This document shows, piece after piece, positions 17,413 through 23,400 of a DNA stretch of 64,000 nucleotides. The stretch is from positions 620,001 to 684,000 of the forward strand of contig QWDQ01000001.1 of assembly GCA_003868215.1 (NCBI GenBank), in the 5' to 3' direction. The notes beneath the pieces are model-generated. The model had not been told where the DNA came from. It worked only from the letters and a program-made list of their open reading frames with translations, and did not search any database. A program made the position numbers and the translations under genes. Each line of letters begins with the position of its first letter. The stretch's first letter is position 1. The stretch comes from Pseudophaeomoniella oleicola (taxonomy: Eukaryota; Ascomycota; Eurotiomycetes; Phaeomoniellales; Phaeomoniellaceae).

Positions 17413-20400
17413 TTACTGCCGCTCCCACATGAGATAATAGTCACCAGTACCGCCACAGAACCCGTCTTCACCTGCACAGGGGTTGTTGCAATACGGTTGC
17501 AAGTTCTCATACGGATCCACCCTATCATTCGCAATGTTAGGGACAACGTATCCCGGTACGATAGTCGCTGCTGAGGCATCCGTGACGGGCGGGATAGTCA
17601 GTTCACCGGCGACTGTCGTGGGGTTGGGTTCTTTTGCGCATGCGCATTGACCGGTGCCATCAGCCTGCCAATTGCCCATAAAAGCGTACATGTTTTGTGC
17701 GTAACCGTCAGGATATACTATAGGGTCGCATGAGAGGAGGCAATCTGCGGTGTTGTCGTATCGAGCGCCATAACCGAGTCCTCCGTTGTTCCTGACTAGA
17801 TGACAACCCATGAACACGAAGCCGTTTACGGCTCCACTGCCCTTGAAGAATATTAGTGTCTTTCCTACTCGAAGTGTCTCACATAACGTACTGTCACCTA
17901 AGTTTACGTTAGTATAAGAGCCAACACAGTCTTTCACACAACTTACTGCTGGTCCCTGTATACGAAAGCCTGAATTAGTGCTCGCTTTTCATTCGTCTTG
18001 CAAGTCGCTTTTGACTTACCGCAGGACCTGTCGGCATGATCAGCATATGTACCTATTTACAAATCCAATGTTATGCTTACCACTTGGCCCACTTGGTCCA
18101 GAAGGGCCTGTCAAACCTGTTGGGCCTATATCACCAGTTGCACCTGAGGGACCGGAAGGACCGATATCGCCAGTTGGACCAGAGGGACCGGAAGGACCAG
18201 TCGGACCAAGGTCTCCAGTCGGACCAGAGGGACCTGTCGGGCCAATATCACCAGTCGGGCCAGTCGGTCCAGTCGGACCTATATCTCCAGTTACACCAAT
18301 CGGTCCTGTCGCTCCATCTGCTCCGGATGGGCCTGAAGGACCTGTCGGTCCAGTTGGGCCAATATCGCCAGTTGCACCTGAAGGACCAGTCGGACCAATA
18401 TCTCCAGTTGGGCCAACATCACCACTCGGGCCGGTCGGTCCAATATCACCAGTTGGACCGGAGGGTCCAGTCAGACCAGTCGGACCGGTTGGACCTATAT
18501 CTCCAGTTACTCCAGTCGGACCTATCGGCCCGGTTGGGCCAATATCGCCTGTTGGCCCTGTTGGTCCAATATCGCCAGTCGGACCAGTAATGCCAGTTGG
18601 GCCAGTCGGACCAATATCGCCTGTTGGACCGGAGGGGCCAGTCGGACCAGTCGGACCTATGTCTCCAGTTACACCAGTTGGACCAATGTCACCAGTTGGG
18701 CCAACGTCGCCAGTTGGACCTTCAGGTCCGGATGGGCCGGTCGGTCCAGTAACACCAGTAGGGCCTATATTTCCAGTTGCACCGGTATCTCCAGAAGGAC
18801 CTGAAGGGCCAGAAGGGCCAGTTGGACCAATTCCTCCAGTTGGACCGGTGACACCAGTTGGGCCTATGTCTCCAGTTGCACCAGTAGGGCCAGTCGGTCC
18901 AATATCGCCAGTTGGGCCTTCAGGTCCAGATGGACCAGTCGGACCATTGACACCAGTAGGGCCTATATCTCCAGTTGGACCCGTTGCTCCGTCTGCTCCG
19001 GATGGACCTGAAGGACCGGAAGGGCCAGTTGGACCAGTATCACCAGTCTGTCCAGCGTCACCAGTTGGTCCAGTCGGACCTAAAGGACCAGTTGGACCTA
19101 TATCTCCAGTAGGACCTGGGATTCCTGTGGGTCCACTAGGACCACTAGGACCAGTGTCTCCAGGAATGCTTACATAAGGTCAGTTCGAACTGATGGATAG
19201 AAAACGAAATACTCATCTTGAATACCCTGTGATAGAAAAAGTTAGCCATGTTTAAGTACGACTTTTACGTCGAAGGAAGACTTGCCATCGGTCCGCTGGG
19301 TCCACTCGGTCCAGTTGGGCCATCGGAGCGTACTTCAGAGTCAGCAAGATCATATGAGCGGTGCCGTTATACTCATCTTGAGCACCCTGGAGACATCAGT
19401 AAACATCCTCTAAACAGCAGCATCAAGTGTTACTTACAGATGGTCCACTAGGTCGTATTCTTGGTCAGTTCCAGAGCGTTTGATGTGTGAAAGATTACTT
19501 ATCAGTAGGACCCTGAGGCTGTTAGCTCAGACCTCAAGAACTGGTCAAATGTACACTTACAGTTGGGCCAATCACACCGGTTGGTCCGATGCTTCCGTCA
19601 GCGCCCTTTTATCTTGTTAACCCTTTCGCATTCACACAGACAATATGAAGTAGTACCGATGGACCCTGATAACGACGTTTGGTCAGCACACGGTTCACTG
19701 TATCAATCGGATAACCTACACTTGGGCCGCTGGGACGTAATGGGATGTTAGTGCAACTTCCTCCCTCCGAGTTCTAGAGACTTATCAGAAAGTCCGCTTG
19801 GCCCCGTCGGTCCCTCAAACGAAAGTTAGCATATCGTTGTCTGTTGCAACATGGAAGCATCTCACTGTCTCGCCTGGCAGACCGCTCACACCAGTTGGGC
19901 CTGAAGGTATATATCAGTTAATCAAACGAAAGAATAAAGTTGATTCGTTGATGCCACAAACCAGAAGGCCCACTAGGGCGTATTGAACGTCAGCATTATG
20001 TATAACCTCGGCGTTGGTGCACTCATCAGTAGGCCCCTGCAGAAATACAATCAGCTACGATGTTGACATGCGTTGTAAAGACTGACTGTTTCTCCCGCCA
20101 TTCCGCTGATACCCTCGGGACCAGATGGGCCTTAACAATAACGTTAATATCTCGACACTCCATTTGCCAGTGAAGGTGGACTTACCACTCGGGCCAGATG
20201 GACCTAGATCGTGTTGTTAGTATCGTCCGTTTTGTTGTGCTAGACTCAATTGAACTCACCACTCAGGCCAGATGGTCGTGTTTTATGTTAGTAAAATCAT
20301 TGATATAAGATCAAGAACTTATCTGTTGGTCCTTGGTCTCCTGTGACACCCGTTGGCCGTACATTGTGTCAGTTTCTAAATATGAAAGGATTGGAGAGGA

Positions 20401-23400
20401 CATATCCTGTATTCCTTGAGGTCCGGTTTCGCCTGGCACCCCTGTGGGGCGTTCCTTGTGTCAGTAGTCAGATGTAATGAGAGTCAGAGCAAACATATCT
20501 GCTATTCCTTCGGCTCCAGAAGGACCTGATGGTCCCGTTGGACCTGTGTCACGTGCTTTGTGTCAGCATTGTAGGCTATATGGTGTACAAGTACTCATCT
20601 GATAGCCCTTGAGGTCCAGTAGGGCCTGTCGGGCGTGTTTTGTGTTAGACGAATGACGTGCGTTGGGAGGAAAGGACTTATCAGCTGGTCCCTGTTGGAT
20701 CATAAGTATGAGGACATCTCAGCAGAGTATCTAATGACGGCGTGCTCACGATTGATCCGACATCGCCAGCTAAACCTTGAGGTCCTGTGGGACCAGTTGG
20801 GCGTGCTTTTTGTCAGCGCTATAACATACTTGCTTTGCCCAGTCACTTATCAGTTGACCCCTATCGCAGATCAATCATTTGCAACATGCAATAGGGTCAA
20901 TTTTAAGCTTACTGTCTCCCCAATATCACCAGTAGATCCCTGTGGCCCTGAAGGACCAGACGGACGTGCTCGAGTTAGCTCAATGTCACTGAGAGGAATG
21001 GAGAAGAACTTATCAGAAGGTCCCTACTTGAGCTTAGTACGGTACTCTGCAAACAATTTTGTTGTGATGGACTTACGGTTGCACCAACCTCTCCACTGAG
21101 ACCTTGAGGCCCTGAAGGGCCAGATGGGCGTGCACAATATCAGCTGTCAATCACCTCAGCAAGCGAAGAAAACTTATCAGTCGGCCCCTATGGAAAATGG
21201 TCAATCTTCAATGAAGATTCGCCGATCGTATAGACTTACGAGAGCTCCAATATCTCCAGCAGCGCCCTGTGGACCTGAAGGGCCACTTGGACCGGTAACT
21301 AACATGTTCAGCGTAAAAGCTTTCGGGTCACCGAACTAGAGGTAACTCACTAGCTGCTCCTGGGGGACGTAGATAGAAATTCAGTATTGTCCAATCAATT
21401 GATAGAAGAACTTATCTGATGGCCCGGATGGTCCGGTAGCTATAACAGTCGCTTAGCTTACTCTAATATAACTGCACGGAAAGATCTTACCAGCAGCCCC
21501 AGAAGGACGTAGATAATGGTATTAGTAGGTATTTCAACCGTGAATAGAATAAATGGACTTATCTGTTGGCCCAGGTGAACCCGTTTCTCCTTGAGGGCCT
21601 GTTGGTCCAACACTGCCTTCTTGACGTACATGTTATCAGTTGGGCTCGAACGTAGGGAAGGGTTTGACTTATCTTGGAGTCCCGATGGTCCAGTTGGTCC
21701 AATTGGTCCAGAGGCGCCAGTCTCACCCTGGGAGCGTAATTTCAAAGTCAGCAGCAGAAATAATTCGACTTGAGAGAACTCATCTTGAGGTCCCGTTGGA
21801 CCAATATCTCCTGTAGGGCCTGTAACCCCAGTCGGACCGATGCTGCCTGGAGGGCGTATGATCAGATGTCAATATCATACAGTAATTTAAGGACGTAGAA
21901 CTTATCTGATGGCCCAGAAGGTCCTGTGGGACCGGTCACTAGTATGGTCAGTACAACGTAGAGACTAGACATTATCAAACATTAATACCGGCTGATCCAG
22001 CTGGGCGTAATGGAAATCGTTAGCCTGGGAGTTCTGGTTAAGTATGGAAGACCTATCTGTAGGCCCAGTGTCTCGTGGTAATTGTCAGTAAAGACGCAAG
22101 GTCTGGGACGATCAAGCAACTTATCTTGAAGGCCTGATGCACCGCTAGGCCCAGTTGCACCTATTTGACCACTCGCGCCCTGGACAGTTAATAGACGACC
22201 ACCGAATGAAGATGAGATGGATATCTACCTGTGGGCCAGAAGCGCCAGAAGGGCCAGAAGGTCTTCGAGAAGTTAATACAGTCGAGTTACTTCGAATTGT
22301 TCGTACCCGCTTGGTCCAGTCTGCCCTACTAAACCGCTTGCACCCTTCAATAGTGAGTACATAGAAGACTCAATGAGAGCAATATAAGGTAGCTCCTTAC
22401 TTGAGGGCCAGATGGTCTAGCGATGTCAGCATTGTATACAACAGATCACCTTTTGGGTTGGGTACCCTGTAGGTCCTGTAGCACCTTGATTCATTGTTAA
22501 ATATGTATGATGCAATAATACGATACGTGAAGTTACCTTGTGCGCCCGCTGGACCCGTAGCTCCTTTACATATTCTGTTATTCTTGGCTTCATGCTTGGA
22601 GTTTGTACTTTCCACATACCCGCAGCTCCAATAGAGCCCTGGCTCGTTTAGTAAGGAGCACCTGAAAGTGATTCTGATATTACCTGTAGACCTGTTGCTC
22701 CCTATCCATCGTCAATGCTGAATATCAATTTCAAGAGTTCAGCCTACAGTCGGTCCCGATGGCCCTGGTCCCTGTAAGTATCCATCTTCATTTTAGGTGC
22801 CACTTTACATACCACTCGGCCCTGTGGCGCCCTGAATGCCTTCTAATGTCAGACTGCATCTCTTTGGATCATTTGGACTTCTCACCCTGTGCACCACTGG
22901 GTCCAGTCTCTCCCTGAGTACCTATAATACGTCAATACCACTGCGTGTAACAGTTACACATACGCTTACCTTGGGGACCTGTTGCACCGCTTGGACCTGA
23001 AAGAGTCGTGAGTACAGCACGTTAAGCTCTGAGCATGTCTGCGTACCTGTAGGTCCAAGATCTCCTGATGATGGCAAATTGAGTTAGCGTGGACTTGGAA
23101 GCAAGCACATGTACCTTTACCTTGAGGTCCAGCTGCACCCGTCGCACCTTCTGCACCCGCAGGTCCCTTTTGGCATCGTCAGTGACAATGATTCAGCCCA
23201 TGTGGGGGTATTCCACTTACCGTTGGCCCTTCGGCGCCTTCCCTTTAAGGTCAGAATGAGACCCTAAGGAGAGAAACTAGAGATGGGTAACATACCCGCA
23301 GGCCCACTGGGGCCAACATCACCTAAAAGAGGTCAGTACGAATGCAGATAGACCCTCGCTATATGCTGAGTATACCTGGTGGCCCCGCAACACCCTGAGG

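Follow-up and report, generated by a model that had tools for sequence, protein, structure and literature searches.

How can a reading frame be maintained across 19 segments that begin with AT and end with AC? This question is raised by a collagen-like gene on the minus strand of a 64-kb stretch of the Pseudophaeomoniella oleicola genome (the window), which we analysed together with searches of the whole genome (26.1 Mb in 112 contigs). A preliminary description of the window had placed all 19 segments in this one gene, and we find every one of them on that strand, from 22124 to 19330; as an observation, the AT-AC segments are confirmed. Very probably they are introns of the U2 class whose first and last bases form an A-C pair, and which were spread by old tandem duplication. 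Coordinates are collected in Table 1, and single introns are referred to below by the position of their first base.

To see what the segments do to the frame, we compared the gene model with and without them. Removal of 58 introns leaves a 5292-nt frame that is divisible by three and contains no internal stop. From N- to C-terminus it encodes an N-terminal part that is Ser/Thr-rich as judged by eye, the DUF7908 domain, a Gly-X-Y repeat, and a C-terminal part for which hmmscan returned no Pfam match; a Pfam Collagen match above cut-off lies in the 3' exon of the repeat. Lengths divisible by 9 nt are found for 24 of the 53 internal exons, and the shortest exons measure 9–10 nt. Of the 201 steps of the Gly-X-Y register over the modelled stretch, three are irregular (GSAVTG, GAAATG and GAAITG), and each of these sits at a GT-AG intron. 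When all 19 AT-AC segments are retained the first stop comes at codon 217 of the 613 of the repeat model, and that frame contains 32 stops. The claim that frame, register and clean stop all need the AT-AC segments to be removed was borne out for the set as a whole; when A-start introns are retained singly, 21783 and 21013 are the only ones of the 20 that give no stop in the modelled stretch. As a separate observation, the repeat is intron-free in 18081-19169 whereas 19170-23451 carries 54 introns, and intron loss via complementary DNA is possible.

The same counts bear on a different reading, namely that the AT-AC segments are hardly or never spliced, the gene being in decay or yielding only a short product of its 5' GT-AG portion. 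Early closure of the unspliced frame is what such a gene would display, expression is a prediction from sequence, and the U2-type spliceosome is said, in the part of the source available, to recognise AT-AC introns poorly (PMC7367187). Against this, removing the segments leaves only the three irregular steps, followed by a remaining repeat and a C-terminal part that are free of stops, and the splice signals of the segments are alike although their interiors resemble each other only at chance level (see below). We consider decay or truncation unlikely.

The repeat contains 54 introns: 33 GT-AG, 19 AT-AC, one GC-AG and one that is perhaps AT-AA. Of these, 47 were taken from a Viterbi path whose prior favoured GT-AG and AT-AC, and seven were set by hand, among them one AT-AC intron (20405), the GC-AG intron (19227..19285) and the candidate AT-AA intron (19170..19216). 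AT-AC introns have a mean length of 48 nt and GT-AG introns of 52 nt. All 19 AT-AC introns are in phase 1 with a G on both exon sides, while GT-AG introns occupy phases 0, 1 and 2 in 15, 16 and 2 cases. Eight exons of 10 nt (one Gly-X-Y triplet plus one G) lie within 19217-21187 on the minus strand; each has a G-start intron before it and an A-start intron after it, seven of the latter being AT-AC and one the candidate AT-AA. Strict pairing of the ends had also been proposed, and it stands for 19 A-C and 34 G-G introns; one A-A pair would break it if 19216-19170 is read correctly. That candidate holds a CTGAC branch and was placed by frame and donor and branch consensus. On the other hand, adding AT-AA as a class lowers the score by 10 nats and the class is used once, and a path trained on a paralogue (C35, described below) sets an AT-AC segment at 19216-19179 in its place.

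Are the AT-AC borders forced by the sequence? Gly-X-Y coding DNA was represented by a semi-Markov model, with the gene's own uninterrupted repeat exon as training set, and two kinds of run were made. In the first, with introns of 38–80 nt, all 256 terminal dinucleotide pairs were equally likely a priori. A flat pass already put AT-AC in the lead, with 7.6 of 54 expected introns against 3.5 for GT-AG. Expectation-maximization (EM) was started once flat and five times at random, and always ended with GT-AG first (21.8–22.7) and AT-AC second (16.8–17.2); from the flat start the third pair was AT-GG at 3.95, and 17 of the 19 AT-AC introns were recovered with exact borders at posteriors of 0.54–1.0, 21783 receiving a different end and 20405 a different start. 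In the second kind of run, with introns of 36–90 nt, each of 254 pairs was joined in turn to GT-AG and GC-AG. AT-AC ranked first of the 254 (lnV -5713.5), 73 nats ahead of the runner-up GA-CA (-5786.2). With the C35 paralogue's uninterrupted repeat as training set it again came first, by 90 nats; once AT-AC was allowed there, the best further pair gained at most 6.4 nats, and adding AT-AG, GT-AC or AT-AA each reduced the score. The path trained on the gene itself held 19 AT-AC segments, 17 of them among those listed (21415 and 20405 were missed), and the C35-trained path held 22, including 18 of those listed (21415 was missed). As a negative control we ran 23466-22170, where the AT-AC class was not used and adding it lowered the score. 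In 22230-19050, by comparison, it was used 19 times, for 17 of the listed 19, with a gain of 152 nats. When donors were forbidden one at a time, the loss exceeded 2 nats for 17 of the 19 and 5 nats for 11.

These runs address whether the segments are introns spliced at GT-AG or GC-AG borders, the AT-AC ends being an artefact of the Gly-X-Y alignment. A path restricted to GT-AG and GC-AG exists, and for two of the 19 the AT donor can be forbidden free of charge. However, that path is 146 nats worse (lnV -5859.3), reaches 86% Gly and contains one stop, and as a gene model it was rejected. The path that includes AT-AC reaches 97% Gly, also with one stop, near 21988, which comes from a misplaced GT-AG intron. 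Since the exon-final G differs from the intron-final C, the borders cannot slide, and AT-AC takes first place under both training sets. We therefore regard other splice ends as very improbable.

Next, we asked to which class the AT-AC introns belong. Their donors read ATRNGT, with +5G and +6T in 19/19. RAGT at +3 to +6 occurs in 16/19 AT-AC and 8/33 GT-AG introns (Fisher 3.8e-5, a test that overstates independence because the introns share descent). Matches to U1 outside +1 average 6.9 in AT-AC and 5.5 in GT-AG introns, as would be expected if the lost G-C pair needs compensation. The strict branch CTRAC is found in 14/19 AT-AC and 12/33 GT-AG introns. The branch A, when the branch is picked by score, lies on average 11.5 nt from the intron end, mostly at 9–13 nt, and the AC used is the first at least 9 nt past that A in 18/19 introns (15/19 with a limit of 5–7 nt). 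Donor positions 1–6 show 89% identity among the AT-AC introns while their interiors stand at 0.28, compared with 0.27 expected from composition, suggesting that the splice signals alone are conserved. The preliminary description had called donors and branch sites those of U2 introns; this holds for both, with the strict CTRAC motif present in 14 of the 19 branch sites. In sum, the assignment to U2-type introns with AT-AC ends is well supported by sequence.

AT-AC is, to be sure, the classic end pair of the minor (U12) class, and the branch points do lie near the 3' end. Yet among the 20 A-start introns neither an ATATCC donor (0/20) nor CCTTAAC (0/20) occurs. Genome searches, which covered U6atac and U12, gave no match but carry no weight, since their controls were equally silent; the available text of a survey reports no convincing minor introns in Ascomycota (PMC10639083). 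A U12 origin is extremely improbable. Two U1 small nuclear RNA (snRNA) candidates were found (L010, L011 and L012 include the U1 and U6 candidates), and both 5' ends read ACTTACCT, so that no variant U1 pairing with A at +1 is seen; both candidates are diverged and fall below the Rfam cut-off, and further copies may have escaped. A variant U1 (ACTTATCT) was rejected on the 5' ends of these two candidates. The single U6 candidate contains ACAGAGA; it spans 156 bases for a family of 105 positions and perhaps contains an intron.

How might such introns be removed? In the available text of two sources the first and last intron bases form a non-Watson-Crick pair, for which G-G and A-C are isosteric (PMC13326754, PMC6461851), and the major spliceosome can consequently process AT-AC introns whose U2-type donor is good, which the stronger donors here fit. 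Under the U2-class reading, strong pairing with positions +3 to +6 and with exon position -1 would let U1 and U6 recognise the AT donor; the A-C terminal pair would share the geometry of G-G, allowing the second step to accept AC, and any AG in the stretch from branch point to AC would stay unused. The sequence itself displays the end pairs, the frame, the consensus, the tandem units and, for one pattern, no genome-wide excess outside two paralogues; we infer excision in the cell, with the A-C pair as its probable mechanism.

To account for the number of AT-AC introns we turned to their arrangement. A unit occurs four times in a row, at spacings of 163, 164 and 163 nt; three of the copies consist of a GT-AG intron, a 10-nt exon, an AT-AC intron and a 53-nt exon, and the fourth, which begins at 20749, is altered. 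Three places carry the same one-residue Gly-X-Y break at a GT-AG intron. We also compared introns in pairs, with 60 shuffles each, the branch region included and two paralogue introns added: z exceeded 3 for 11 of 210 AT-AC pairs, while the share was 0.9% among 693 mixed pairs and 0.8% among 528 GT-AG pairs. AT-AC introns are thus slightly more like each other than like GT-AG introns, although shared branch motifs may explain part of this excess. As the interiors are at composition level, the spread would be old and the duplications cannot be counted. The proposed amplification by tandem duplication thus finds support in the spaced units, the shared breaks and the uniform phase, but not in the interiors, whose likeness is that of chance. 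Duplication, long ago, of units that already had an AT-AC intron fits both the intron likeness and the tandem units.

Repeated insertion of a mobile introner family with AT-AC ends might likewise multiply such introns. Introners are known in Pezizomycotina (PMC9860276, in the part available), and all 19 introns have a G on both sides. But the interiors are unlike, few AT-AC pairs pass the shuffle threshold, the pattern has no excess elsewhere in the genome, and the 163-nt spacing spans exons and GT-AG introns as well. Introner insertion is accordingly highly improbable. Repeat-induced point mutation was dismissed as the origin by reasoning only: it could account for the A that replaces G in the donors, but a G-to-C change in the acceptors is beyond it.

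DUF7908 has eight matches at seven genome loci, of which three are collagen-like: the AT-AC gene, C35 and C1:1133-1136 kb; in the other four no Gly-X-Y repeat was seen among the open reading frames (ORFs) listed there. A hand reading of the C1:1133 paralogue gave 17 introns over the modelled stretch, of which 15 are GT-AG and two are AT-AC; the spliced product is a clean Gly-X-Y repeat. One of its AT-AC introns, L017 4876-4920, shares with intron 20322 ten identical exon bases before and four after. The C35 paralogue (L009 5570-7300) has an uninterrupted repeat, with one in-frame TAG inside the DUF7908 match. A DNA pattern for Gly-Pro-Ser/Thr gave 41 matches, 40 of them in the three known loci; the remaining one, in C54, does not resemble a repeat and was discarded. 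With the DUF7908 exon as query, one relative of 116 amino acids was found (P0001; 64% identity over 55% of the query).

A genome-wide search for GATRWGT..CTRAC..ACG gave 65 matches and its reversed control 79. Thirteen of the 65 lie in the AT-AC gene, two in the paralogue and 50 elsewhere, so that outside the two paralogues the pattern shows no excess over the control (50 left against 79); it recovers only 13 of the 19 introns here, and scattered single AT-AC introns elsewhere are therefore possible. With GT-AG ends the pattern had 324 matches against 90 in its control, and CAGATAAGT..CTRAC..ACG gave four against three, one in the AT-AC gene and one in the paralogue. All 65 matches were scored for open frames, and for two of the 50 elsewhere (L016 and L074) the sequences were read. 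Some of the 50 (e.g. L048, L075, L041 and L082) have an open frame on both sides and a stop between, so that single AT-AC introns are possible among them. Three others were rejected: a normal GT-AG intron occupies the place in L074, L016 adjoins an ORF on the opposite strand with no sign of coding across the candidate, and in L055 a GT donor stands 5 nt upstream.

Few origins of the AT-AC class in the gene family are likely. The class may go back to one event or a small number of events, probably predating the divergence of the two paralogues, after which tandem duplication of exon-intron units would have multiplied it in this gene. Copies may then have been trapped, because reversal needs two simultaneous changes; such trapping is proposed for U2-type AT-AC introns in the portion of the source available (PMC2831892).

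Several observations weigh against the reading of the 19 segments as U2-class AT-AC introns. Forbidding donor 21415 or donor 20405 alone costs nothing; we retained both on the agreement of frame, donor and acceptor, and since one other run gives each of them exactly (21415 in the flat EM, 20405 in the C35-trained path). The equal-weight paths hold two and four extra AT-AC segments, which we rejected. In the C1:1133 paralogue alone, AT-AC ranks only 4/254 by register, and the automatic path there includes one additional AT-AC, also rejected by us. Strict CTRAC is absent from 5/19 AT-AC introns. In 7/19 an AG follows the chosen branch point and precedes the AC, and in four (21013, 20850, 20598 and 19376) it stands exactly 3 nt before the intron end, so that AT-AG splicing with one added codon is possible in those four. 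Finally, no orthologue appeared among 938 candidates obtained with a 1040-residue spliced-product query and scored on residues 540-700. The layout with an AG 3 nt inside the AC, which these 4/19 introns share, is spliced in an Arabidopsis green fluorescent protein reporter with a U2-type AT-AC intron, a transgene that also harbours a nested GT-AG intron (PMC5473141, in the part available).

A further possibility is that the 19 AT-AC introns form a coordinately gated second class, full-length collagen mRNA being made only when the major spliceosome tolerates A-C terminal pairs. The gating state might involve altered proofreading by Prp8, Prp18 or Prp22, or modification of U6. If true, 19 introns would act as a steep switch: an efficiency of 90% each would leave 0.9^19 = 14% of transcripts complete, and 99% would leave 83%. 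We hold such gating to be rather unlikely.

Table 1. Positions of the collagen-like gene, its A-start introns and related features
Feature	Position	Strand	Basis
Collagen-like gene, ATG at 25641, stop ends at 17413, 58 introns, 1763 amino acids	17413..25641	-	
Exon with DUF7908 (PF25485)	23544..24016	-	hmmscan of 23443-24000, E 1.6e-23
5' part of Gly-X-Y repeat, 17 mini-introns, all GT-AG	22180..23451	-	AT-AC class unused by model
AT-AC intron 1	22075..22124	-	Viterbi path; donor-forbidding test
AT-AC intron 2	22007..22056	-	Viterbi path; donor-forbidding test
AT-AC intron 3	21856..21905	-	Viterbi path; donor-forbidding test
AT-AC intron 4	21736..21783	-	Viterbi path; donor-forbidding test
AT-AC intron 5	21626..21672	-	Viterbi path; donor-forbidding test
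AT-AC intron 6	21509..21562	-	Viterbi path; donor-forbidding test
AT-AC intron 7	21369..21415	-	Viterbi path; posterior 1.0 in flat EM; equal-weight paths miss it
Three tandem units: GT-AG intron, 10-nt exon, AT-AC intron, 53-nt exon	20750..21239	-	Repeat family D2
AT-AC intron 8, preceded by 10-nt exon	21130..21177	-	Viterbi path; donor-forbidding test
AT-AC intron 9, preceded by 10-nt exon	20966..21013	-	Viterbi path; donor-forbidding test
AT-AC intron 10, preceded by 10-nt exon	20803..20850	-	Viterbi path; donor-forbidding test
AT-AC intron 11, preceded by 10-nt exon	20635..20681	-	Viterbi path; donor-forbidding test
AT-AC intron 12	20553..20598	-	Viterbi path; donor-forbidding test
AT-AC intron 13	20451..20498	-	Viterbi path; donor-forbidding test
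AT-AC intron 14	20359..20405	-	Hand-set borders; exact match in C35-trained path
AT-AC intron 15	20278..20322	-	Viterbi path; exon flanks as paralogue intron L017 4876-4920
AT-AC intron 16, preceded by 10-nt exon	19980..20026	-	Viterbi path; donor-forbidding test
AT-AC intron 17	19737..19785	-	Viterbi path; donor-forbidding test
AT-AC intron 18, preceded by 10-nt exon	19455..19502	-	Viterbi path; donor-forbidding test
AT-AC intron 19, preceded by 10-nt exon	19330..19376	-	Viterbi path; donor-forbidding test
GC-AG intron	19227..19285	-	Hand-placed
Candidate AT-AA intron, preceded by 10-nt exon, uncertain	19170..19216	-	Hand-placed: frame, donor/branch consensus
Uninterrupted Gly-X-Y exon, 1089 nt	18081..19169	-	Gene model, open frame
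Paralogue AT-AC introns	L017 4470-4521 and 4876-4920	C1:1133 gene	Hand-read

Elsewhere in the window, on the minus strand, a polyketide synthase with KR, dehydratase, methyltransferase, carrier and NAD_binding_4 domains occupies one long open frame at 54013-60615, and an ORF at 36566-38005 gives a weak match to a Fringe-like glycosyltransferase. Among the best 120 of 7997 matches of a neighbouring MOT1-like gene, the top one with an organism name is Endocarpon pusillum, at 87% identity over 501 residues; two further matches rank higher, at 94 and 88%, and Exophiala-like fungi come next at about 84%. By these matches the fungus probably belongs in or near Verrucariales.

Sodium channel genes carry one U2-type AT-AC intron per gene. 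As described in the available part of the source, these introns (e.g. SCN4A intron 21) likewise combine AT-AC ends and a +5G donor with the major spliceosome (PMC2831892); the fungal gene differs in having 19 of them, of about 50 nt. For Caenorhabditis elegans, a source available in part suspects at least 42 of 59 AT-AC introns to be real, with minor snRNAs seemingly absent and the U2-type spliceosome probably at work, as here (PMC3033335). However, that figure is a genome total, whereas here 19 fall in one gene with no excess of the pattern outside the two paralogues. Rising intron numbers are also a feature of the sequence-similar stwintrons and introners of Pezizomycotina (introners, available in part: PMC9860276). 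In a stwintron one intron interrupts the donor, branch or acceptor of another; the introns of our gene model are not nested, no search aimed at nesting having been made, since every intron is intact and at least 9 nt of coding exon precede the following one. Unlike introners, they have dissimilar interiors. Vertebrate fibrillar collagen genes, which use 54-nt exons, likewise split a Gly-X-Y repeat into many short exons, but the fungal protein carries DUF7908 and its exons go down to 9–10 nt.

AT-AC makes up 0.019% of annotated fungal splice pairs in the available text of Frey and Pucker (PMC7072748), and 19 in one gene are therefore far beyond the usual. In our searches of open-licence PMC papers we found no comparable case of several U2-type AT-AC introns in one gene. 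The rule that terminal bases pair as G-G or A-C rests on mutants, structures and scattered single introns. A single transcript with 19 AT-AC and 33 GT-AG introns of similar length would make it possible to compare the two terminal pairs within one RNA, in efficiency, fidelity and choice of the 3' end. A gene finder confined to GT-AG and GC-AG would break this gene, and similar cases may thus be hidden. For the evolution of introns, the locus suggests a route by which a non-standard class may grow common: duplication, with no easy return.

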